DNA of 33,197 bases. Origin: Lutibacter sp. Lineage in GTDB: Bacteria; Bacteroidota; Bacteroidia; Flavobacteriales; Flavobacteriaceae. The notes under the pieces were generated by a model. That model was not told where the DNA came from. It ran no database searches and saw nothing but the letters and a program-made list of their open reading frames with translations. Positions 7,791 to 22,354 of the stretch are shown piece by piece. How positions within the stretch are numbered: the first letter of the stretch is position 1; the number at the start of each line of letters is the position of its first letter. The position numbers and the translations under genes are program-made. The stretch is taken from contig JAQVGD010000012.1 of NCBI GenBank assembly GCA_028696945.1, positions 1-33,197 on the forward strand. Direction: 5' to 3'.

Positions 7791-7864
7791 TCCTCCTTAG
7801 CTCAGTTGGTTAGAGCATCTGACTGTTAATCAGAGGGTCCTTGGTTCGAGCCCAAGAGGAGGAG
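7791..7864 (+). tRNA. tRNA-Asn(GTT)
   Basis: Cloverleaf by eye: acceptor TCCTCCT/AGGAGGA, anticodon arm TCTGA-CTGTTAA-TCAGA (anticodon GTT), T-arm CTTGG-TTCGAGC-CCAAG. Confidence 0.97.
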
Positions 7865-7874
7865 CAAAACGAGT

Positions 7875-11001: not shown

Positions 11002-12450
11002 ATGAGTTTTGATACAGTTATTCCAACGGCAAAAAGAATAGAACGTTTACAATATGAAAACCCTTGGTGGACAACAGGCAATGTGCAACAAACCTACCGA
11101 GAAATGTCTAAACGCTTGTATTTTAATTTGTTCTATCCTTTTGTAAAAGAAACTGATATTAAGCGTGCTGTGGTGCTTATGGGCCCCAGAAGAGTTGGTA
11201 AAACAGTTATGATGTATCATACCATTCAAGAGTTAATTAAAGAAAATATTTCGCCACAAAAAATCTTTTTTATAGGTATAGACAATCCTATATATTTGCA
11301 CTTAAGTTTGGAAGATATTTTGTTGTTGGCAAAAGAAGCAGTACAAGCAGCTATCTTAGAAGATTGTTTTGTTTTTTTCGATGAAATTCAGTATTTAAAA
11401 GATTGGGAGCGCCATCTTAAAGTGTTGGTTGATAGGTATCCCAAAACAAAATTTGTAGTATCGGGTTCTGCTGCTGCTGCTTTGCGTTTACAAAGTACAG
11501 AAAGTGGTGCTGGCAGGTTTACAGATTTTATGTTACCACCGCTTACCTTTCACGAATACATTCATTTAAAGGGTTTAAATCATTTGATACAAGCTAAAAG
11601 CATCGTTTACAACGGTAAAGAAATTCCTTTTTTTACCACCCACGATAACAAAGCTTTTAACAAAGAATTTTTTCATTACCTCAATTTTGGTGGATATCCA
11701 GAAGTGGTTTTGTCCGAAAAAATACAATCGGATATGGGGCGATACATAAAAAATGATATTGTAGATAAAGTGTTGCTTAGAGATTTACCCAGTTTATATG
11801 GCATTAAAGACGTGCAAGAATTAAATAGCTTTTTTACCTATTTGGCATACAACACAGGGAATGAATTTTCATTTGAGAAATTGTCTAAAGACAGTGGTAT
11901 TCAAAAAGAAATCATAAAAAAATATTTAGAATATCTTGAAGCCGCATTTTTATTAAAGGTAATACACAAGGTTAATGATAACGCCAAAAAGTTTAAAAGA
12001 ATAACGAGCTTTAAAGTGTATTTAACCAATCCTTCTTTACGAACAGCCTTATTTTCTCCCATTGTAGAAACAGATAATGAAATGGGCAATATGGTAGAAA
12101 CTGCTATTTTTTCTCAATGGATGCATCGTGAAAATCTCGATTTAAAATATGCTCGTTGGAAAATGGGACGTGCTGAAGGTGAAGTTGATATTGTACTGCT
12201 GGATAACAAATTATTTAAACCACAATGGTGTGTGGAAATAAAATGGAGCAATCGCTATGTTGACAAACCACAAGAATTAAAAAGCCTAATCTATTTCTGT
12301 AAACAAAATAATTTTAAGGCAAGTTTGGTAACAACTATTGATGTTTTAGCTAATAAAACGATAGAGGATATAAATCTAACCTATGTTCCTGCGGCTGTTT
12401 ATGCGTATAACATTGGTGTGAATACACTAGAAATAAAAACAAATTGGTAA
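11002..12450 (+). CDS. ATP-binding protein, AAA_14/DUF4143-type
   Basis: 482 aa; Walker A 'MGPRRVGKTVMMY', Walker B 'CFVFFDEIQYLKDWERHLKVLVD', 'VVSGSAAAALR', C-terminal DUF4143-like 'EVDIVLLDNKLFKPQWCVEIKWSNR'. Confidence 0.9.
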   Translation: MSFDTVIPTAKRIERLQYENPWWTTGNVQQTYREMSKRLYFNLFYPFVKETDIKRAVVLMGPRRVGKTVMMYHTIQELIKENISPQKIFFIGIDNPIYLHLSLEDILLLAKEAVQAAILEDCFVFFDEIQYLKDWERHLKVLVDRYPKTKFVVSGSAAAALRLQSTESGAGRFTDFMLPPLTFHEYIHLKGLNHLIQAKSIVYNGKEIPFFTTHDNKAFNKEFFHYLNFGGYPEVVLSEKIQSDMGRYIKNDIVDKVLLRDLPSLYGIKDVQELNSFFTYLAYNTGNEFSFEKLSKDSGIQKEIIKKYLEYLEAAFLLKVIHKVNDNAKKFKRITSFKVYLTNPSLRTALFSPIVETDNEMGNMVETAIFSQWMHRENLDLKYARWKMGRAEGEVDIVLLDNKLFKPQWCVEIKWSNRYVDKPQELKSLIYFCKQNNFKASLVTTIDVLANKTIEDINLTYVPAAVYAYNIGVNTLEIKTNW

Positions 12451-12453
12451 AAA

Positions 12454-12645
12454 ATGCTCAATGAAAACTCCATAGAACTTGCTTTTGCAAACCAATTGGT
12501 TGGCCAAAAGTACTTGTATCAGTATGGTCAGATATTGCCCGATACAATCGCAATCCACACCGAGAATGTTTTTAAGAGTTTTTATGAAACTAAATATAAA
12601 ATTGTTGATGTTATAGAAAATGGACCTAATGATTTGCCATTTTAA
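12454..12645 (+). pseudogene. Truncated hsdR 5'-end duplicate (63-aa ORF)
   Basis: MLNENSIELAFANQLVGQKYLYQYGQI matches the start of full hsdR (MPNLNENSIELAFVNQLVGQGYTYFYGPEI); DNA 12461-12508 is nearly identical to the same stretch of hsdR near 14929-14976. Confidence 0.8.
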
Positions 12646-12650
12646 AAAAA

Positions 12651-14903
12651 ATGAATTTTATGAAAAACGTACAAAAACCAGAAAAAATACATCTTGGAAA
12701 ACTTATAGAAGAAATAAAAAAAGGAAGGTTTGTAATACCAGATTTTCAGCGTGAATTTGATTGGCAGCCTTGGGATGTAAGAGATTTAGTGAAATCCATT
12801 TTTATGGATTATTATATTGGCACGCTTCTATTATGGGAGGGAAATAAAGAAAATTACAGAAAACTTGGTTGTGCGAACTTATATGCATTTAATGAAACTT
12901 CAGACCCAGAATTTATAGTTTTAGATGGTCAGCAAAGATTATCAGCACTTCACTATGCTTTTTTTCAACCAGATATAAAGTTTAGAAATAGGAAAAACCC
13001 CATTTATTTTTTCATCAGGCTTAAGGAATTGCTAGACGAAAACTATGAAGAAGCTTTTTTTTATTATAGTAGAACCAAATATTATGATGACTTGGTAGCC
13101 GATGTTAATATACAATATGAAAATCATATTTTTCCTCTAGGAATTATGCAGCAGGGGTCTTGGGGTATTGATGATTGGATTAAAGGCTATAGAGACTACT
13201 GGAATGAGCAAGCTGAATTAGAAGTTGACAATGAAAAGAAAACAGAATTAGAAGCACTTTCTGCTGCTGCAATTGAAATAAGACACGTATTTTCAGACCT
13301 CTTAAATAACTACCAGGTTAGTTATATATCACTCGCTAAAGAGTTGCCACTTAATAAAGTATGCGACATTTTTACACATATCAACTCTAAAGGTAAGCCA
13401 TTAGATACGTTTGATTTAATAAATTCCATTACTCGAAAAGAAGATGTTTACCTTAAAGAAATGTATAGGGAGGCATCAAAATTAATTGATGATATTAGCT
13501 ATCCAGGCTTTGAAATGAAAACTCATATTTTGATGGTGATGTCCATCATAAAACAAAATTATTGTAGTGCCAAGTATTTATATTATTTAGTTCCTGGAGA
13601 AAAGAAAAAAATAAAAAATAAAGAAGGGCAAAACGAAGAAATTATTTTAATAAATAATAAAGAAGAGTTTATAGATTTATGGAATTTGGCAGTTGGAGCT
13701 ATTGATAAAACTTTAAATAGTTTAAAAAATCAACGAGAATTTGGAGCAATCACAGCTAAGTTTTTACCCTATCCTTCAATTATTCCTTGTTTATCAGCCA
13801 TAAAATATTATGTAAAGACCTCTGAATTAAAAAACAAAGTTGACATCCATTCTAAAATTAAAAAATGGTATTGGGCTTCCATTTTCTTAAACAGATATTC
13901 CAGTTCTGTGGAAAGTACATCTACAAAGGATTTTATGGATTTAAAAAAGTGGTTTGATAATGATGACCTAGAGCTAGATGCAGTATCAGAATTTATAGGA
14001 GTCTACAAAAATATTGATTTACATAAAGAAAACAGAAACGGTTCTGCAATTTATAAGGCTATTTTCAACTTGTTTATTTTAAATGAAGCACGTGATTGGG
14101 AGACATTTGAATTACCTGAATATGACGATTTAGATGACCATCATATTGTTCCTAAAAGTTGGGGAAAGGAAATAGGTTTAGGTCAGGATATCAATACTAT
14201 TCTTAATAAAACACCACTTTCAGGAGATACAAACCGGAAGGTTATTAGAAATTCACTGCCAAATGTTTACATTAAAAATATGTTTACTAATAATGATGAA
14301 GAAAAGGTTTTTAAAGTATTAAAATCACATTTAATTAGTAAAAAAGCAGTCGAGATATTATTAAGAGAAGACTTTAGTGTTGTTGATTATAAGGAGTTTA
14401 TTGCAGAAAGGAAGAGTACGATTATTAATGCCATTTATAATATGGTTATTAATGAAACGGTGGAGCTTCCAGAGGATTTATTTAAAATTAATAATGATAT
14501 AGAGGCTCTTGAATTAAAATTTAGAGAGATTATAATCACTAATTTATTTTTGTATAATAGATCCAGTTTAAAGGAAAACTTATCGCCTGATATTTATGAT
14601 AAGTTAAATCAAAAAATTAATCGTGAAAGAAAGCGTAATCCAAATTTGGTTGAAATAAATATTGAAGATGTTGATTATTGGCTGCAGTTTTCAGATCTAC
14701 AGGAATTACAAAGTTTAATAACTTCAAAACTGCACTGGCATAAATTTGAAGGAATGTTTGTTAATAAAGAGCGATTAACTTCTGAATTTAATGATGTGGC
14801 TAACCTTAGAAATGCATTAAGACATTCACGAGAAGTTGATACTATTACAAGGATGAAAGGAGAAGCATCTATTTTATGGTTTAAACAACAATTATCTATT
14901 TAA
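12651..14903 (+). CDS. DUF262/DUF1524 (GmrSD-like) protein with probable C-terminal Swt1-type HEPN domain
   Basis: N-term 'IHLGKLIEEIKKGRFVIPDFQREFDWQPWDVRDLVKSIFMDYYIGTLLLWEG...FIVLDGQQRLSALHYAFF' (DUF262); 'DDHHIVPKSW...NTILNKTPLSGDTNRKVIRNSLPN' (DUF1524 HNH); C-term 'LQFSDLQELQSLI..KLHWHKFEGMF..KERLTSEFNDVANLRNALRHSRE' (RNxxxH). Confidence 0.85.
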   Translation: MNFMKNVQKPEKIHLGKLIEEIKKGRFVIPDFQREFDWQPWDVRDLVKSIFMDYYIGTLLLWEGNKENYRKLGCANLYAFNETSDPEFIVLDGQQRLSALHYAFFQPDIKFRNRKNPIYFFIRLKELLDENYEEAFFYYSRTKYYDDLVADVNIQYENHIFPLGIMQQGSWGIDDWIKGYRDYWNEQAELEVDNEKKTELEALSAAAIEIRHVFSDLLNNYQVSYISLAKELPLNKVCDIFTHINSKGKPLDTFDLINSITRKEDVYLKEMYREASKLIDDISYPGFEMKTHILMVMSIIKQNYCSAKYLYYLVPGEKKKIKNKEGQNEEIILINNKEEFIDLWNLAVGAIDKTLNSLKNQREFGAITAKFLPYPSIIPCLSAIKYYVKTSELKNKVDIHSKIKKWYWASIFLNRYSSSVESTSTKDFMDLKKWFDNDDLELDAVSEFIGVYKNIDLHKENRNGSAIYKAIFNLFILNEARDWETFELPEYDDLDDHHIVPKSWGKEIGLGQDINTILNKTPLSGDTNRKVIRNSLPNVYIKNMFTNNDEEKVFKVLKSHLISKKAVEILLREDFSVVDYKEFIAERKSTIINAIYNMVINETVELPEDLFKINNDIEALELKFREIIITNLFLYNRSSLKENLSPDIYDKLNQKINRERKRNPNLVEINIEDVDYWLQFSDLQELQSLITSKLHWHKFEGMFVNKERLTSEFNDVANLRNALRHSREVDTITRMKGEASILWFKQQLSI

Positions 14904-14915
14904 CTATTAGAATTT

Positions 14916-17900
14916 ATGCCTAATCTCAACGAAAACTCCATAGAACTTGCTTTTGTAAACCAATTGGTTGGTCAAGGATACACGTATTTTTATGGTCCTG
15001 AAATTGCACCATATAGCAGTAATTTACAACGTGAAAGTTTTGAGAGTATTATTTTAGAAAAGCAGTTTAAAGAAGCATTGGTAAAGCTAAATCCAACTTT
15101 ACCAGAAGGTGCATTAATAGAAGCGTATCAAAAAGTTATCAATTTAGGCACACAGGATGTGATGGAAAACAATGAGCGTTTCCATACAATGCTAACCAAT
15201 GGGGTTCCTGTTGAATATGCAAAAGGAGAAGGTGTAAAAGGTGTTAATGTTCAGTTAGTAGATTTTGAAAAAGCTTTTAAAAATGAGTTTTGGGTAGTCA
15301 ATCAATTGGTTACAAAAGAAAACAATATTGAAAAAAGATTAGATGTAGTAATCTATATCAATGGGTTGCCATTAGTAGTTGTAGAACTCAAAAATGCTAC
15401 AGATGAGAAGGCTACAGTTCGCAAAGCATTTACCCAAATACAAAACTATAAAAAAGCAGTTCCTAGCATATTTTACTACAATGCGCTATGTATTATTTCT
15501 GATGGTATTGATGCTAAAACTTCTAGTTTATCTGCTCCTTTCACACGTTTTTTATCTTGGAAAGCACCTAAAGAAAGTAATAATCTTTCAATAAATGTAA
15601 TAAATAAGTTACCCTTAGCTGCTGAACCAACTGTTGAGTATGACAAAACTGAATTACAAATTTTAACTGAACAGATGCTTCAAAAAGAGGTATTGTTAAA
15701 ATTAATTAGGTATTGTACTGTGTTTGAAAGTGAGGAGAAAAAAGATGAAAATACAGGCTTAATTTCAATAGTAAAAATTAAAAAAGTAGCTGCATATCAT
15801 CAATATTATGCAGTTCAAAAAGCAGTTGAACAAACATTAAGAGCCACTCATAAATCTGATGGAGATAGAAAAGTTGGTGTAGTTTGGCATACACAAGGAA
15901 GTGGAAAATCCTTATCAATGGTGTTTTTTAGTGGACAAATTATCACACATCCACTAATGAAAAATCCAACATTGGTAATTTTAACTGATAGGAATGACCT
16001 AGATGACCAATTGTTTGGCACTTTTGGAAATTGCGTTGGGTTATTAAGGCAAACGCCTGTACAAGCTGCGAATAGAGAACATTTGAAAGAACTATTAAAA
16101 GTGTCTGGTGGCGGTGTGGTTTTTACTACCATTCAAAAGTTTTCCCCGGAAGAAGGCAATGTGTATGATACCTTATCTGAAAGAATAAATATTGTGGTAG
16201 TAGCGGATGAAGCACATCGCAGTCAATATGGTTTTACAGGAAAAGTGGTTGAATTAGAGGAAGGTTCAGAAATACGTTACGGAAATGCTAAGTATTTACG
16301 TGATGCCTTACCAAATGCCTCATTTATTGGTTTCACAGGAACACCTATAGAAAAAGCAGACAAATCTACACCTGCTGTTTTTGGAGATTATATAGATGTA
16401 TATGACATTAAACAAGCAGTGGATGATGGTGCTACGGTACCAATTAGTTATGAGTCACGCTTGGTTAAGATTAAATTAAATTCTCAGGTAGGTAGTGAAA
16501 TTGACTCATTAGTAGATGCTATTAGCAATGCAAGTGAAGAGCAATTAGAAAAAGCAAAGAAGAAAACAGCTACAATAAATGCAGTTGTTGGGCATCCAGA
16601 CAGGTTAAAAGATGTTGCACTTGATATTGTAACACATTTTGAAGCACGCCAATCTATATTTGAAGGCAAAGCGATGATAGTATGTATGACACGTCAAATA
16701 TGTGTTGATTTATTTGCTCAAATTATTAAATTAAGACCTGAATGGGATGAAGCAGATAAAGATAAAGGAGTCATAAAAGTAATAATGACCAGCTCTTCTG
16801 ATGACCCAGAAGGTTTCCAACCACACCATACCACAAAGCAACAAAGAAAAGAACTTGCAATAAGAATGAAAGATCCAAATGATGGGTTAAAATTGGTAAT
16901 TGTACGTGATATGTGGCTTACAGGTTTTGATGCTCCAAGTATGAATACAATGTATGTTGACAAGAAAATGCAGGGTGCTAATTTAATGCAAGCAATAGCA
17001 AGGGTAAATCGAGTTTATAAGGATAAACCAGGAGGACTTATTGTAGATTATATTGGAATAGGGCAAGAATTACGAGGTGCAATGGCAACCTATTTACAAA
17101 GTGGAGGAGAAGGAACTGCTTTTGTAGATATTAGAGAAGCTATAGCAGGAATGCTAGAAAAGTTTGAAATAGTAGAACAACAATTTAATGGCTATGATTA
17201 TAAGGCTTATTTTAAAGTTGAAACCAATAAAAAATTACAAGTTTTATTGGGTGCTCAAAACTTTATTTTAGCAAGTGAAAATTTAAAAGACAGGTTTTTA
17301 CGTGAGGTAACAGCTTTATCAAAGTTGTTTGCTATGTCAGTACCAAGTTTGCAAGCTGACAGAATTAAAGACGATGTCGCATTTTTTCAAGCAGTAAAAG
17401 CAAGAATAAATAAGTTTATACCTTCAGGAACAAAATCTGATTATGAAGTTGAGACAGCCATAAAGCAAATTGTAGATGATGCATTAAGTAGTGATGGTGT
17501 AATTGATATTTTTGAAGCAGCAGGAATAAAAGCACCTTCAATAGGAATTTTATCAGACGAATTTTTGTTGGAAGTAAAGAATATGAAGCAAAAAAATGTA
17601 GCCTTTGAACTATTAAAAAAATTGCTAGGTGATGAAGTAAGACTTCGTAAGACAAAGAATATATCACAATCAAAAAAGTTTTCTGAAATGTTAGAGCGTG
17701 TGGTAAAAAGATACCACAACAATCAAATCGATTCAGCACAGGTATTAGAAGAATTATCTACTATTGCACGAGAAATGAGGTTAGAAGACCATAGGGCAGA
17801 AGAACTTGGTTTAACTTCTGAAGAATACGCATTTTACAGTGTGTTAAACCAGAATGATTCTACTAAAATGTTGGATGACCATAAAATGAAAGAACTTATT

Positions 17901-18095
17901 CATCACATTGTAGAAATCATCAGTAAAAATGCCACTGTAGATTGGAGTAAAAGAAGTGATGTCAGAGCTAAATTAAGATTGACAGTTCGTAAAATTTTAA
18001 TACGCTATGGTTATCCACCAGATTTAGCGCGTTTAGAAGCTGATAGAGTTCTAGAGCAAAGTGAGTTATTGGCTGAAGAGTTGAGTAGGGCGTAG
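14916..18095 (+). CDS. hsdR: Type I restriction-modification system endonuclease/translocase subunit
   Basis: 1059 aa; nuclease motif 'LDVVIYINGLPLVVVELKNA', Walker A 'VVWHTQGSGKSLSM', 'VVADEAHRSQYG', 'FIGFTGTPIE', 'MQAIARVNRVYKDKPGGLIVDYIG'. Confidence 0.97.
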   Translation: MPNLNENSIELAFVNQLVGQGYTYFYGPEIAPYSSNLQRESFESIILEKQFKEALVKLNPTLPEGALIEAYQKVINLGTQDVMENNERFHTMLTNGVPVEYAKGEGVKGVNVQLVDFEKAFKNEFWVVNQLVTKENNIEKRLDVVIYINGLPLVVVELKNATDEKATVRKAFTQIQNYKKAVPSIFYYNALCIISDGIDAKTSSLSAPFTRFLSWKAPKESNNLSINVINKLPLAAEPTVEYDKTELQILTEQMLQKEVLLKLIRYCTVFESEEKKDENTGLISIVKIKKVAAYHQYYAVQKAVEQTLRATHKSDGDRKVGVVWHTQGSGKSLSMVFFSGQIITHPLMKNPTLVILTDRNDLDDQLFGTFGNCVGLLRQTPVQAANREHLKELLKVSGGGVVFTTIQKFSPEEGNVYDTLSERINIVVVADEAHRSQYGFTGKVVELEEGSEIRYGNAKYLRDALPNASFIGFTGTPIEKADKSTPAVFGDYIDVYDIKQAVDDGATVPISYESRLVKIKLNSQVGSEIDSLVDAISNASEEQLEKAKKKTATINAVVGHPDRLKDVALDIVTHFEARQSIFEGKAMIVCMTRQICVDLFAQIIKLRPEWDEADKDKGVIKVIMTSSSDDPEGFQPHHTTKQQRKELAIRMKDPNDGLKLVIVRDMWLTGFDAPSMNTMYVDKKMQGANLMQAIARVNRVYKDKPGGLIVDYIGIGQELRGAMATYLQSGGEGTAFVDIREAIAGMLEKFEIVEQQFNGYDYKAYFKVETNKKLQVLLGAQNFILASENLKDRFLREVTALSKLFAMSVPSLQADRIKDDVAFFQAVKARINKFIPSGTKSDYEVETAIKQIVDDALSSDGVIDIFEAAGIKAPSIGILSDEFLLEVKNMKQKNVAFELLKKLLGDEVRLRKTKNISQSKKFSEMLERVVKRYHNNQIDSAQVLEELSTIAREMRLEDHRAEELGLTSEEYAFYSVLNQNDSTKMLDDHKMKELIHHIVEIISKNATVDWSKRSDVRAKLRLTVRKILIRYGYPPDLARLEADRVLEQSELLAEELSRA

Positions 18096-18190: not shown

Positions 18191-18811
18191 TTAACGGATA
18201 ACTCCACTAACTCTGTCAACGTTATCTTTTATTCTTGTAAAATGTATTGAGAGCTTGAATATAAATAAATATGCACCGTAATCACTTAAAGTAAATAATC
18301 GCTCATCCTTTAAGTCTTTTGATTGTAAAAGATTAATTGGACAATTATTTAGTCTATCTAAAAAGATTATTGAATCTTCAATTTGCCCTTTTATTTTTGG
18401 AAGAAAAAATATTTGTGTTAATTTCTGTTTTTTTATAGTAGCTATATGCTCTTCAATTTGTTTCTTGTTTTTTTTTGAATCTTTTAAAAGAGTTTCTTTA
18501 TATTTTTTTAAATTGAGTATAGGAGCATAAACAATTTGAGCAGGAAAACTTCTTAGATTTTTAGGGTCAATATCACAAGTATTTGAAAGAATTATACTAT
18601 TTGCTTCTTTTACGGTTGATTCGGGTAAATTAACAATTAGCATATTTTTTATTCCATCACCCTGAAAAATATTAGTTGAATTTTTAAGTGCTGAAGTATA
18701 TAACCTTGAATCAAGATTGTTAGGAAAATCTTTAAGTCCATCAAAAAGCTCTTTTTCAGATTTACTTGATAGAAATTTTGGAAGATATAATTTTATTTCG
18801 TCAAAATTCAT
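18191..18811 (-). CDS. Conserved hypothetical protein, third gene of a TIGR04255-like operon
   Basis: 206 aa; 'IILSNTCDIDPKNLRSFPAQIVYAPIL' and 'LSDYGAYLFIFKLSIHFTRIKDNVDR'; 10-bp gap from the upstream gene, same strand. Confidence 0.75.
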   Translation of the reverse strand: MNFDEIKLYLPKFLSSKSEKELFDGLKDFPNNLDSRLYTSALKNSTNIFQGDGIKNMLIVNLPESTVKEANSIILSNTCDIDPKNLRSFPAQIVYAPILNLKKYKETLLKDSKKNKKQIEEHIATIKKQKLTQIFFLPKIKGQIEDSIIFLDRLNNCPINLLQSKDLKDERLFTLSDYGAYLFIFKLSIHFTRIKDNVDRVSGVIR

Positions 18812-18821
18812 AAAACTTATA

Positions 18822-19127
18822 TTATAACAAATCCCAAAAATTCTTATTTACAATTTCTGCAAATTCTGAGTCTAATTCTTGTGAATTTTGTGTCAGCTCT
18901 TTTGAAAATTTTATTATAATATTTAATTTTTCAGAATCTTCTCTTTGATTTGTATCATAGCTTGTGATATTAGAATTATAACCCCAATGTGAGTCAGAAT
19001 TTTGAAAATTATATTTAGCTTCAAGAGAAGGAGTTATTTTATCATAATCCTCATATTTTAAGGGTAAGACTGTAGAACTAATGGCAGTCATTAATACTAA
19101 ACTCGTTAAATTAGTGCTTGTTCCCAT
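18822..19127 (-). CDS. Small hypothetical protein, second gene of a TIGR04255-like operon
   Basis: 101 aa, N-terminal hydrophobic stretch (NLTSLVLMTAISSTVLPL); starts 3 bp after the stop of the 19131-19844 gene. Confidence 0.7.
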   Translation of the reverse strand: MGTSTNLTSLVLMTAISSTVLPLKYEDYDKITPSLEAKYNFQNSDSHWGYNSNITSYDTNQREDSEKLNIIIKFSKELTQNSQELDSEFAEIVNKNFWDLL

Positions 19128-19130
19128 GTT

Positions 19131-19844
19131 TTAATATTTTGGATTTAATTTTTTTAAATATTCATCACTAATTAACTCAAAAAATAATTTTTTTTCTATT
19201 AGATGACCTTCGTTAATTAGTGTTTCTTTATTGTTGAAAAAATCTTGAAGTCCCTTTGTCTTATGACAATCAATGTCAATAATTGAACCAAAAATATCAT
19301 TTGATTTTGCGTCATTTGATATTTGTAAAGTGCTGACAAATTTACCATTACTAAATTCAGTTCTAATTACACTTTTTTGACTTTTTAATTTTTTATTATC
19401 TAAAATAATTTCTAATTTAATATTATTAAAAATATCCTCATTGAAGAAGTTAATGTATCTTATTCCAAGTCTTTCAACTTCATTGATAATTTTTAATTCT
19501 TCTACTTTATTTAAAATTTCAAATATTTTAGATGAAAATTTTTTCCACCCTACGTATTTAGGATATGAACCAATAGCTAAAACATCTGGTCCGATTTGAA
19601 TAACAAACTCATCATTTGAAATACGATATAATGGTTTGTATTTAAAATTTGGGTCAGACATTCTAATTGGTTCTGGAATTTGTAAAATTGGTAGGTCTTC
19701 AATTTTACTAAAGTCAGATTTTAAAGCATTATAAATGATTCCAAAGATCGCGTTTTGATGAATTTTAGATGTAAACCTAATTTCTATCAAAGCATCTATT
19801 ATAGGGCAATTCTCAATGCTTTTAGGTAAGGTATTAGTTATCAT
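19131..19844 (-). CDS. TIGR04255-like family protein
   Basis: 237 aa; 'PIIDALIEIRF...', 'PLYRISNDEFVIQIGPDVLAIGSYPKYVGWKKFSSKIFEIL' pattern resembling the TIGR04255 family. Confidence 0.7.
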   Translation of the reverse strand: MITNTLPKSIENCPIIDALIEIRFTSKIHQNAIFGIIYNALKSDFSKIEDLPILQIPEPIRMSDPNFKYKPLYRISNDEFVIQIGPDVLAIGSYPKYVGWKKFSSKIFEILNKVEELKIINEVERLGIRYINFFNEDIFNNIKLEIILDNKKLKSQKSVIRTEFSNGKFVSTLQISNDAKSNDIFGSIIDIDCHKTKGLQDFFNNKETLINEGHLIEKKLFFELISDEYLKKLNPKY

Positions 19845-20098: not shown

Positions 20099-20127
20099 GT
20101 CCTTAATTCGAGCCCAAGAGGAGGAGC
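20099..20127 (+). repeat. att-like direct repeat: partial copy of the tRNA-Asn 3' end
   Basis: GTCCTTAATTCGAGCCCAAGAGGAGGAGC matches 7837-7865 at 27/29 positions; followed by a terminator-like hairpin (ACCATTCAA...TTGAGTGGTTTTTTT). Confidence 0.9.
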
Positions 20128-20301: not shown

Positions 20302-20503
20302 GTAAATACCTATTCGTTATGTGTTTTATGATTCATTATTGTTAGTAAATACCAACGTTATAAGTTTATTTCGACATTATTGCCGGTAAATACAAACATT
20401 TTGGTTATTTTATTTTGTTTGTGCATAATTATTTTATATTTTTGTTGGGAAATACTAGCGTTGTAATTTAAAAAGATGATTAATGATGGTAAATACTAAC
20501 AAT
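20302..20503. promoter_or_regulatory. Iterated operator-like repeats (consensus about GTAAATACYAACGTT, five copies) upstream of and overlapping the start of hipB
   Basis: Copies begin near 20302 (GTAAATACCTATTCGTT), 20345 (GTAAATACCAACGTT), 20386 (GTAAATACAAACATT), 20448 (GGAAATACTAGCGTT), 20489 (GTAAATACTAACAAT). Confidence 0.8.
20415..20444 (+). promoter_or_regulatory. Bacteroidota promoter for hipBA (TTG-N19-TATTTTTG)
   Basis: TTG 20415-20417, exactly 19 nt, TATTTTTG 20437-20444; lies between operator copies 3 and 4. Confidence 0.75.
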
Positions 20504-20830
20504 AATTGGGCTGCTATGAGTAATACTGCAATTATAGCAGTAATAGGAAATTATATAAAGGAGCAGCGTTTGCTTCAAAATAAATCACAGGCTAAATTAG
20601 CTGAGGAAGCAGGTGTAAACCGTTGGACAATTGGGCAGATTGAAAACGGTGAGGCAATTACCATAATTTCACTAATACAAATACTTAGAGCCTTGGACTT
20701 GTTGCACGTTTTTGATATATTTAAAATTGAACAACAAGTAAGTCCCATTGAATTGGCTAAACTGGAAAAACGAAAAAGACAACGTGCTAGCGGTAAAGAT
20801 AATGAAGAACAACCTAGAACAGATTGGTAA
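20483..20830 (+). CDS. hipB: HipB-like XRE-family transcriptional regulator/antitoxin
   Basis: 115 aa; HTH 'IKEQRLLQNKSQAKLAEEAGVNRWTIGQIENGEAITIISLIQILRAL'; ATG at 20516 is an alternative start because the fifth operator copy overlaps the first codons. Confidence 0.85.
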   Translation: MMVNTNNNWAAMSNTAIIAVIGNYIKEQRLLQNKSQAKLAEEAGVNRWTIGQIENGEAITIISLIQILRALDLLHVFDIFKIEQQVSPIELAKLEKRKRQRASGKDNEEQPRTDW

Positions 20831-22137
20831 TGATTACAACAGCATTTGTTAAGATTTGGGGAGAAACTGTTGGAGCAGTAGCTTGGGACGAAACAACAGG
20901 AATTGCCAGTTTTGAGTTTGATCCAAAAATAGCACAATTGGGTTGGGATCTTGCACCTATCAAAATGCCTATTTCTCAAACCAATAGAATATTTTCTTTT
21001 CCCGAACTTCGTAGGGCAATAAATAGCGAATTTGACACCTTTAAAGGATTACCAGGTTTATTGGCTGATGTATTACCTGATAAGTATGGTAATCAGTTAA
21101 TAAATGTGTGGTTGGCTCAGAGCGGACGTCCCATAAATAGTATGAATCCTGTAGAACAACTATGCTTTATAGGAACAAGAGGAATAGGAGCTTTGGAATT
21201 TGAACCAACCACGTTAGAATCTAATAAGCAAGCATTTTCAATTGAGATAAATAATTTGGTAAATATTGCCCAAAAAATGCTTTCAAAAAGAGACGCTTTT
21301 GGAGCCAACCTTCGGGAAGATGAGCACAAAGCAATGATGGAAATTCTCAAAATTGGAACATCTGCGGGTGGAGCAAGACCTAAAGCTGTAATTGCCTACA
21401 ATAAAGTAACAGGAGAGGTAAGATCGGGACAAACAAACGCACCAAAAGGTTTCGAACATTGGTTAATAAAACTTGATGGTGTAAGCGATGCGCAATTTGG
21501 AGAAAGTAAAGGTTATGGAAGGGTTGAAATGGCTTATTACTTAATGGCGAAAGATTGTGGAATAAATATGATGGAATCTCAACTCTTAGAAGAAAATAAT
21601 CGGGCCCACTTTATGACCAAACGTTTTGATAGGGAAGGAAACAATACAAAGCATCATGTACAAACATTTTGTGCGATGCAGCATTTCGATTTTAATGAGG
21701 TAACAAGTTTTAGTTATGAACAGTTGTTTCAGACAATGCGAATATTAAGATTGCCCTATCCACAAGCAGAACAAATGTTTCGAAGAATGGTGTTTAATGT
21801 ATTGGCAAAAAACTGTGATGATCATACCAAAAATTTTGCATTCCAGCTTAAAAGAAATCAGAAATGGGAAATTACCCCAGCTTATGATGTCTGCCATGCC
21901 TATCAACCAAACCATCGTTGGGTAAGTCAACATGCGTTAAGTATCAATGGAAAAAGAATAAACATAACAAAGGAAGACTTACTAACTGTTGCAAAGTCAA
22001 TGAATATTAAAAAGGCAGAAAACATTATTGTCGAGATAAGCCATAAAGTAGCTTCATGGAATGACTATGCCGATGAGGTTAAAGTTCAGGAAATCCTAAG
22101 AGATGCTATAAAAAATACTTTAATTAAAATGCATTAG
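20830..22137 (+). CDS. hipA: HipA-family serine/threonine kinase toxin
   Basis: HipA N- and C-terminal patterns ('GLPGLLADVLPDKYGNQLINVWLAQSGR', 'TSAGGARPKAVIAYN', 'HWLIKLDGV', 'MTKRFDREGN', 'MVFNVLAKNCDDHTKNFAF'); TAATG stop/start overlap with hipB. Confidence 0.93.
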   Translation: MITTAFVKIWGETVGAVAWDETTGIASFEFDPKIAQLGWDLAPIKMPISQTNRIFSFPELRRAINSEFDTFKGLPGLLADVLPDKYGNQLINVWLAQSGRPINSMNPVEQLCFIGTRGIGALEFEPTTLESNKQAFSIEINNLVNIAQKMLSKRDAFGANLREDEHKAMMEILKIGTSAGGARPKAVIAYNKVTGEVRSGQTNAPKGFEHWLIKLDGVSDAQFGESKGYGRVEMAYYLMAKDCGINMMESQLLEENNRAHFMTKRFDREGNNTKHHVQTFCAMQHFDFNEVTSFSYEQLFQTMRILRLPYPQAEQMFRRMVFNVLAKNCDDHTKNFAFQLKRNQKWEITPAYDVCHAYQPNHRWVSQHALSINGKRINITKEDLLTVAKSMNIKKAENIIVEISHKVASWNDYADEVKVQEILRDAIKNTLIKMH

Positions 22138-22326: not shown

Positions 22327-22354
22327 ATCAGAGAGTCCTTGGTTCGAGCCCAAG
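22327..22354 (+). repeat. att-like direct repeat: second partial copy of tRNA-Asn
   Basis: ATCAGAGAGTCCTTGGTTCGAGCCCAAG matches tRNA 7829-7856 at 27/28 positions. Confidence 0.9.

Follow-up and report, generated by a model that had tools for sequence, protein, structure and literature searches.

We confirm that three adjacent genes on the minus strand of a 33,197-nucleotide stretch of Lutibacter sp. DNA (hereafter the window; GenBank assembly GCA_028696945.1, contig JAQVGD010000012.1) form a real, mobile and apparently undescribed unit. Gene 1 (19131..19844) encodes a TIGR04255 family protein of 237 amino acids (aa), gene 2 (18822..19127) a protein of 101 aa and gene 3 (18191..18811) a protein of 206 aa with a predicted MazF/Kid fold. 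The genes are separated by gaps of 3 bp (19128-19130, genes 1 and 2) and 10 bp (18812-18821, genes 2 and 3), and the open reading frame (ORF) coordinates agree with the three tightly packed minus-strand genes reported in a preliminary description of the window. Two aspects are new here: TIGR04255 proteins head three-gene units in which the third gene is exchanged, and gene 3 is predicted by modelling to adopt a MazF fold. Our favoured reading, to which we give slightly better than even chances, is that the unit is a tripartite toxin-antitoxin-type module of prophages and islands, probably directed against phages, with gene 3 as the toxin, gene 2 as the antitoxin and gene 1 as their partner.

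Conservation and genomic setting of the three-gene unit

Relatives were searched with gene 3 alone, except for two Pseudomonas phages that were reached through gene 1 and both carry gene 3. Genome contigs yielded one relative, a 15-kb circular Phocaeicola element another and viral contigs 41 loci, and a set of 396 Bacteroidota genomes held one further match (2/396 overall); a weak match in genome G051 (E 8e-4, two stops) was left out of the counts. At 90% identity the loci fall into 28 clusters, 27 of which preserve the order TIGR04255 - about 100 aa - about 200 aa. The sole exception (L013) is cut by a contig end, so that 27/27 clusters with complete flanks are ordered; at L022, the middle gene was accepted on its position, length and C-terminus and not on its profile score. 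Because all of these keep the three-gene order though nearly all were found via gene 3 alone, the arrangement is not due to chance, and we regard the operon as well supported. Intergenic gaps range from -16 to +26 bp across the loci. The preliminary description had suggested a check of neighbourhood co-occurrence, and the three families proved to be nearly always adjacent in other genomes. It had also considered a housekeeping role for the 206-aa family, of which there is no sign given the rarity of the family among the Bacteroidota genomes and its presence as prophage cargo.

Most loci lie in prophages, whose hosts include Pseudomonas and E. coli. The E. coli form, annotated as 'TIGR04255 family protein' plus two hypothetical proteins, occurs in 92 of 5,426 complete genomes at an identity of at least 99%, which makes the module accessible in K-12. 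A lambdoid prophage of E. coli strain PU-1 carries the unit between its antiterminator Q and holin genes, opposite to the late-gene direction. It is found downstream of a CI-type repressor in Pseudomonas phage VW-6S and at L019, adjoins the portal gene of the P2-like phage Dobby and adjoins an integrase at four further loci (L003, L014, L018 and L022). Such sites are cargo (moron) positions, and the module of the window, on the opposite strand, conforms to the same pattern.

No named system in Pfam, NCBIfam or PADLOC-DB matches the set, in line with the preliminary description, which had not recognised it as a named anti-phage or toxin-antitoxin system. The module proteins of the window have no match in PADLOC-DB 2.0.0 at E <= 1, and among the 25 gene 3 and 26 gene 1 family members there was one isolated weak match each. 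In the Pfam, NCBIfam and PADLOC libraries, neither gene 2 nor gene 3 reaches a family cut-off; near-matches of these two genes in Pfam (RGI1, Bul1_C, NagA_C and CspB_prodomain; E 0.002-0.07) lie below the curated cut-offs and were dismissed as chance. A sequence search of solved structures likewise returned chance matches alone. In PHROGs, gene 3 belongs to phrog_4575 and gene 1 to phrog_5464, neither with an assigned function, and gene 2 has no family over the cut-off. In PMC full texts, with supplements, most subscription papers and preprints beyond reach, neither TIGR04255 nor phrog_4575, phrog_5464 or the E. coli accessions were found. Gene 1 is a member of the known TIGR04255 family (sporadTIGR04255 in NCBIfam; phrog_5464). 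However, this model covers a single protein without an assigned function, and the recurring three-gene unit, with its exchanged third genes, is contained in no description that we found. The broader proposal of an undescribed co-translated system of a defence or selfish kind has thus held up: adjacency is kept, no library names the set and it travels as mobile cargo.

The third gene: exchange and predicted fold

TIGR04255 has so far been known only as a 'sporadically distributed' family, to which the reading proposed here would give a function. The family occurs in 24/396 Bacteroidota genomes as well as on a Thermus plasmid and in Sulfurimonas and Campylobacter phages. At 21 of 22 TIGR04255 loci examined, two further genes follow downstream in tight coupling, commonly with 4-bp overlaps. 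The third of these genes is exchanged between loci, as seen in a survey of Bacteroidota, plasmids and phage records. At five loci a PemK/MazF toxin takes this place; two of these were tested against Pfam PemK_toxin (E 4e-13 and 1e-14) while the remaining ones were assigned by near-identical sequence. On the Thermus plasmid, where the unit lies near vapC and cas6, the third gene encodes an HEPN protein (PF05168, E 4e-6), and the third proteins of L079 and L008 are HEPN-like, the former below the cut-off and the latter as judged by eye. At L085 the third gene is a gene 3 relative with the motif LSQACDI, and several unassigned families occupy the third position elsewhere. PemK and HEPN are established families of RNase toxins, and the third position therefore looks like an effector position. 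We predict that many hypothetical genes downstream of TIGR04255 encode toxins or effectors. Viral contigs scanned with gene 1 of the PemK, HEPN and 'MFLARK' units gave no match.

The unassigned third genes in Bacteroidota are those of L084, L086, L090 and L096; L082, L091 and L092; L089 and L094; L093; and L098. Examples are 'MFLARKITRAKW' (171 aa) and 'HFAP..VK..AFLP' (120-155 aa), with no Pfam match where tested. These genes could encode further effectors. The third gene of L085 (5392-5946) encodes 184 aa with 'ITQGD..VIVLSQACDI' and is a distant relative of gene 3, which hints at a wider LSQxCDI family.

Since PemK/MazF can take the third position, a likeness of gene 3 to MazF was considered and its fold was predicted. 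The AlphaFold model, based on 23 family members, has a mean pLDDT of 88.7. In a Foldseek search of the PDB, the top 43 matches were all of the MazF/Kid family, most with a probability of 1.00. The best match was B. subtilis MazF with RNA (E 1.7e-4, probability 1.00), and the first 17 matches had target-normalised TM scores of 0.67-0.75. In a viral structure library, the best matches of the model were an endoribonuclease and PemK-like proteins (E 0.002-0.01). The predicted MazF/Kid SH3-like barrel fold of gene 3 is thus well supported. Together with the exchange of the third gene for PemK/MazF and HEPN, this outcome of the Foldseek check suggested in the preliminary description adds a toxin-antitoxin-type reading to it. 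The register of a weak profile alignment with MazF proteins agrees with the fold, pairing QGD with RGD, ILSNTCDID..N with VvSpd..N, API with APlT and SIIFLDRL with GQIVLDQI.

Some gene 3 pairs are as low as 24% identical, yet 11 residues are invariant in 25/25 members: Q50, G51, D52, S76, N77, C79, D80, N85, R87, R193 and R200. The QGD motif (residues 50-52, 18656..18664, minus strand as for all module features) lies just ahead of the predicted strand 1, and SNTCD (residues 76-80, 18572..18586), in which S, N, C and D are invariant, is part of 'IILSNTCDI'. The alignment and the AlphaFold model also place a C-terminal helix with FKLSIHF at residues 185-191 (18239..18259). The distinctive motif and C-terminus pointed out earlier in the third product are indeed family features, with 'ILSNTCDI' and '..LF.FKLSIHF.R....DR' conserved.

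The closest known systems in regard to this fold are MazEF and PemIK (Kid), with which the module shares the predicted fold of the third protein and a small gene directly upstream, and sister TIGR04255 units even have a true PemK_toxin member in third place. In contrast to these systems, gene 3 is not recognised by the PemK_toxin profile (0/25 members match at E <= 1), lacks conservation of the catalytic arginine and threonine and has extra helices. Moreover, the module has TIGR04255 as a third partner, and its gene 2 is without a recognised antitoxin DNA-binding domain. We do not file the module as MazEF because the fold agrees but the family profile and the catalytic residues do not.

Proposed mechanism and alternatives

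We infer the toxicity of gene 3, its contact with gene 2, the role of gene 1, the trigger, the target and the part in defence as follows. Gene 3 would be a MazF-fold toxin and gene 2 its antitoxin, gripping gene 3 via a conserved C-terminal motif, and gene 1 would act as a dedicated partner, either by stabilising gene 2 or by sensing infection. In the uninfected cell, genes 1 and 2 would keep gene 3 silent. A phage product would engage gene 1 or gene 2, gene 2 would be lost, and gene 3 thus freed would arrest the cell, most likely by an attack on RNA.

A comparable sequence of events has been described for CmdTAC, a toxin-antitoxin-chaperone (TAC) system in which a capsid protein draws the chaperone off, leading to degradation of the antitoxin and release of the toxin (PMC11618068). 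By analogy, the module could work like CmdTAC with TIGR04255 replacing the SecB-like chaperone. In both, three genes point the same way, the toxins (putative ones in the module) are exchanged and include RNase families, the middle protein is small and partly unstructured, and a further protein may stabilise this middle protein and detect infection. With regard to the chaperone-addiction segment of TAC antitoxins, gene 2 of the module has a hydrophobic stretch near its N-terminus followed by a variable linker, but gene 2 of the PemK and HEPN units differs. Unlike the SecB-like partner of TAC systems, TIGR04255 members have no SecB family match, and SecB is absent from the 50 best structural matches of gene 1; the gene order of the module, partner-antitoxin-toxin, differs as well. 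We do not count the module as a TAC member because neither the family profiles nor the 50 best structural matches show a SecB-like chaperone. Tentatively, and at somewhat less than even chances, TIGR04255 could be the shared core of an undescribed class of three-gene immune modules, serving interchangeable toxins as a plug-in sensor or stabiliser whose role would be equivalent to that of SecB in TAC systems without being related to it. Such a class would span the MazF-fold SNxCD proteins, the LSQACDI relative, PemK, HEPN and several unassigned families. If the partner senses infection, this would be a second, SecB-independent design of third-party toxin control in phage defence.

Several findings weigh against a tripartite toxin-antitoxin-type module. 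Concerning gene 3, profile-profile comparison with 34 MazF proteins was weak (probability 3.6%, P 0.012), and because of this weak similarity the homology to MazF rests on the predicted fold. In addition, the columns corresponding to the catalytic arginine at the start of strand 2 and the threonine at the end of strand 3 of MazF are variable in gene 3 (K/R/V/E/G and V/I/L/F, respectively), so that RNase activity may be absent or may use another site. The QGD, SNxCD and NxR residues, which are invariant, are candidates for such a different active site. CcdB and MazF have a common fold, and the variable catalytic columns would also suit a protein that has kept this fold, lost the RNase site and acts, like the gyrase poison CcdB, on a protein target. 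This possibility is a variant of our favoured reading in which the target alone differs. It appears unlikely to us, since the invariant polar cluster of Q50, D52, S76, N77, C79, D80, N85 and R87 resembles an active site, the third position is exchangeable with PemK and HEPN, and CcdB is not found among the 50 best matches of gene 3.

Gene 2 consists of a hydrophobic N-terminal segment, a variable linker and a conserved C-terminal motif, F..L....L..E.......NFWDLL. Its C-terminal 30 residues (IKFSKELTQNSQELDSEFAEIVNKNFWDLL, 18825..18914) are the sole conserved part of the alignment, end with NFWDLL or similar across the aligned members and are proposed to bind the toxin. Being small and flexible, conserved at its end and encoded directly upstream of a toxin-fold protein, gene 2 has the look expected of an antitoxin. 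A search of plasmids with the gene 2 C-terminus of PemK units, intended to connect it with known antitoxins, gave no meaningful match. Against an antitoxin role, gene 2 is without a recognisable antitoxin domain and poorly conserved outside the C-terminus, and its N-terminal segment might instead anchor it in the membrane. In 24/25 members this segment shows a hydrophobic peak at residues 6-18, of moderate strength (median 17-residue Kyte-Doolittle mean 1.55). Such a peak would be expected of a RexAB-like arrangement (lambda; P. putida, PMC12894663) in which gene 2 is the effector acting on the membrane and genes 1 and 3 detect infection and release it. Like rexAB in lambda, the module is a prophage unit and in two Pseudomonas-type prophages lies directly downstream of a CI-type repressor. 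Nevertheless, we consider such an arrangement quite improbable. The module has three genes. RexB has four transmembrane helices, whereas gene 2 has a single, moderately hydrophobic segment and genes 1 and 3 are predicted to have soluble folds, so that none of the three genes encodes a multi-pass membrane protein. The hydrophobic segment is absent from gene 2 of the PemK and HEPN units, the third genes of these sister units belong to RNase-toxin families, and the third protein of the module is MazF-like. RexA as a homologue of gene 1 was rejected, as it is outside the 50 best fold matches.

The assignment of gene 1 to TIGR04255, made earlier from its likeness, is firm: the NCBIfam model scores 143.3 bits against a cut-off of 30, aligns with residues 10-234 and is matched by 26/26 aligned members. 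AlphaFold predicts a duplicated TBP-like (helix-grip) fold with a mean pLDDT of 92.7. The best Foldseek matches, TBP and the AdoMetDC prozyme, are weak (E about 1e-4, TM 0.24-0.31), which is a further point against the proposed role, and these modelled fold matches give no function. AbiEii was rejected for gene 1, with a single protein of 26 matched (E 0.0027). The faint likeness to TBP-like folds, the mobile-element setting throughout and the predicted MazF fold of the third protein would all agree with an ordinary addiction module in which the same toxin and antitoxin serve only to keep prophages and islands in the population, gene 1 is a transcriptional regulator and there is no anti-phage role. 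We give this possibility only a small share of probability, as defence genes typically occupy prophage moron sites and defence islands and no recognised DNA-binding domain was found in gene 1 by Pfam or family profiles.

Damaged copies bear on the tripartite module with gene 3 as toxin in two ways. In two unrelated loci (L002 and E. coli RM8082), one of which comes from a metagenome assembly, gene 3 is broken while genes 1 and 2 are whole. These lesions fit gene 3 as the costly part of the module, but two cases prove little and the small count weighs against us, as does L043, where gene 1 and gene 3 are both broken. Between its lysis genes and the module, the RM8082 prophage (L103), with its truncated gene 3, also carries an IS4 transposase and a gene annotated as 'enterotoxin A family protein'.

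The island at tRNA-Asn

The module is the last unit in a 12.3-kb island at tRNA-Asn (GTT; 7791..7865, plus strand, identified by ARAGORN), which is the integration site. The 29 bp at the 3' end of this tRNA gene (7837-7865) are repeated at 20099..20127 (plus strand) with 27/29 identical positions. This att-like copy marks the right end of the island, and the whole genome holds its core 21-mer at these two places only. The preliminary description had placed the unit between hsdR and an att-like repeat, as is the case with hsdR at 14916-18095. In the sister genome G048, tRNA-Asn is directly followed by the sequence found after position 20127 in the window; farther on from the same tRNA-Asn, G048 carries a tyrosine integrase and a different element. 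Because of the att repeats and this arrangement in the sister genome, the island is taken to be an insertion, with which the module probably arrived along with the Type I restriction-modification (R-M) genes and those of AAA-DUF4143 and GmrSD type. No integrase was seen among the ORFs of the island. The GC content of the module region is lower (23-27% in 1-kb windows) than that of most of the island (28-36%).

The hipBA genes (20483-22137) lie outside the island, past the right repeat, and behind them a third, partial copy of the tRNA-Asn 3' end is found at about 22335-22354. The R-M island and the following hipBA block are possibly two elements in tandem. Within the Type I R-M operon, two genes sit between hsdS and hsdR, one for an AAA_14-DUF4143 ATPase (PADLOC PDC-S01; 11002-12450) and one for a GmrSD_N-domain protein (PDC-M55C/HEC-05; 12651-14903). 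The start of a 63-aa ORF (12454-12645) nearly duplicates the N-terminus of HsdR, as a 73-bp direct repeat (85%) with 14925-14997, which suggests that the GmrSD-type gene was inserted at the hsdR start or duplicated it.
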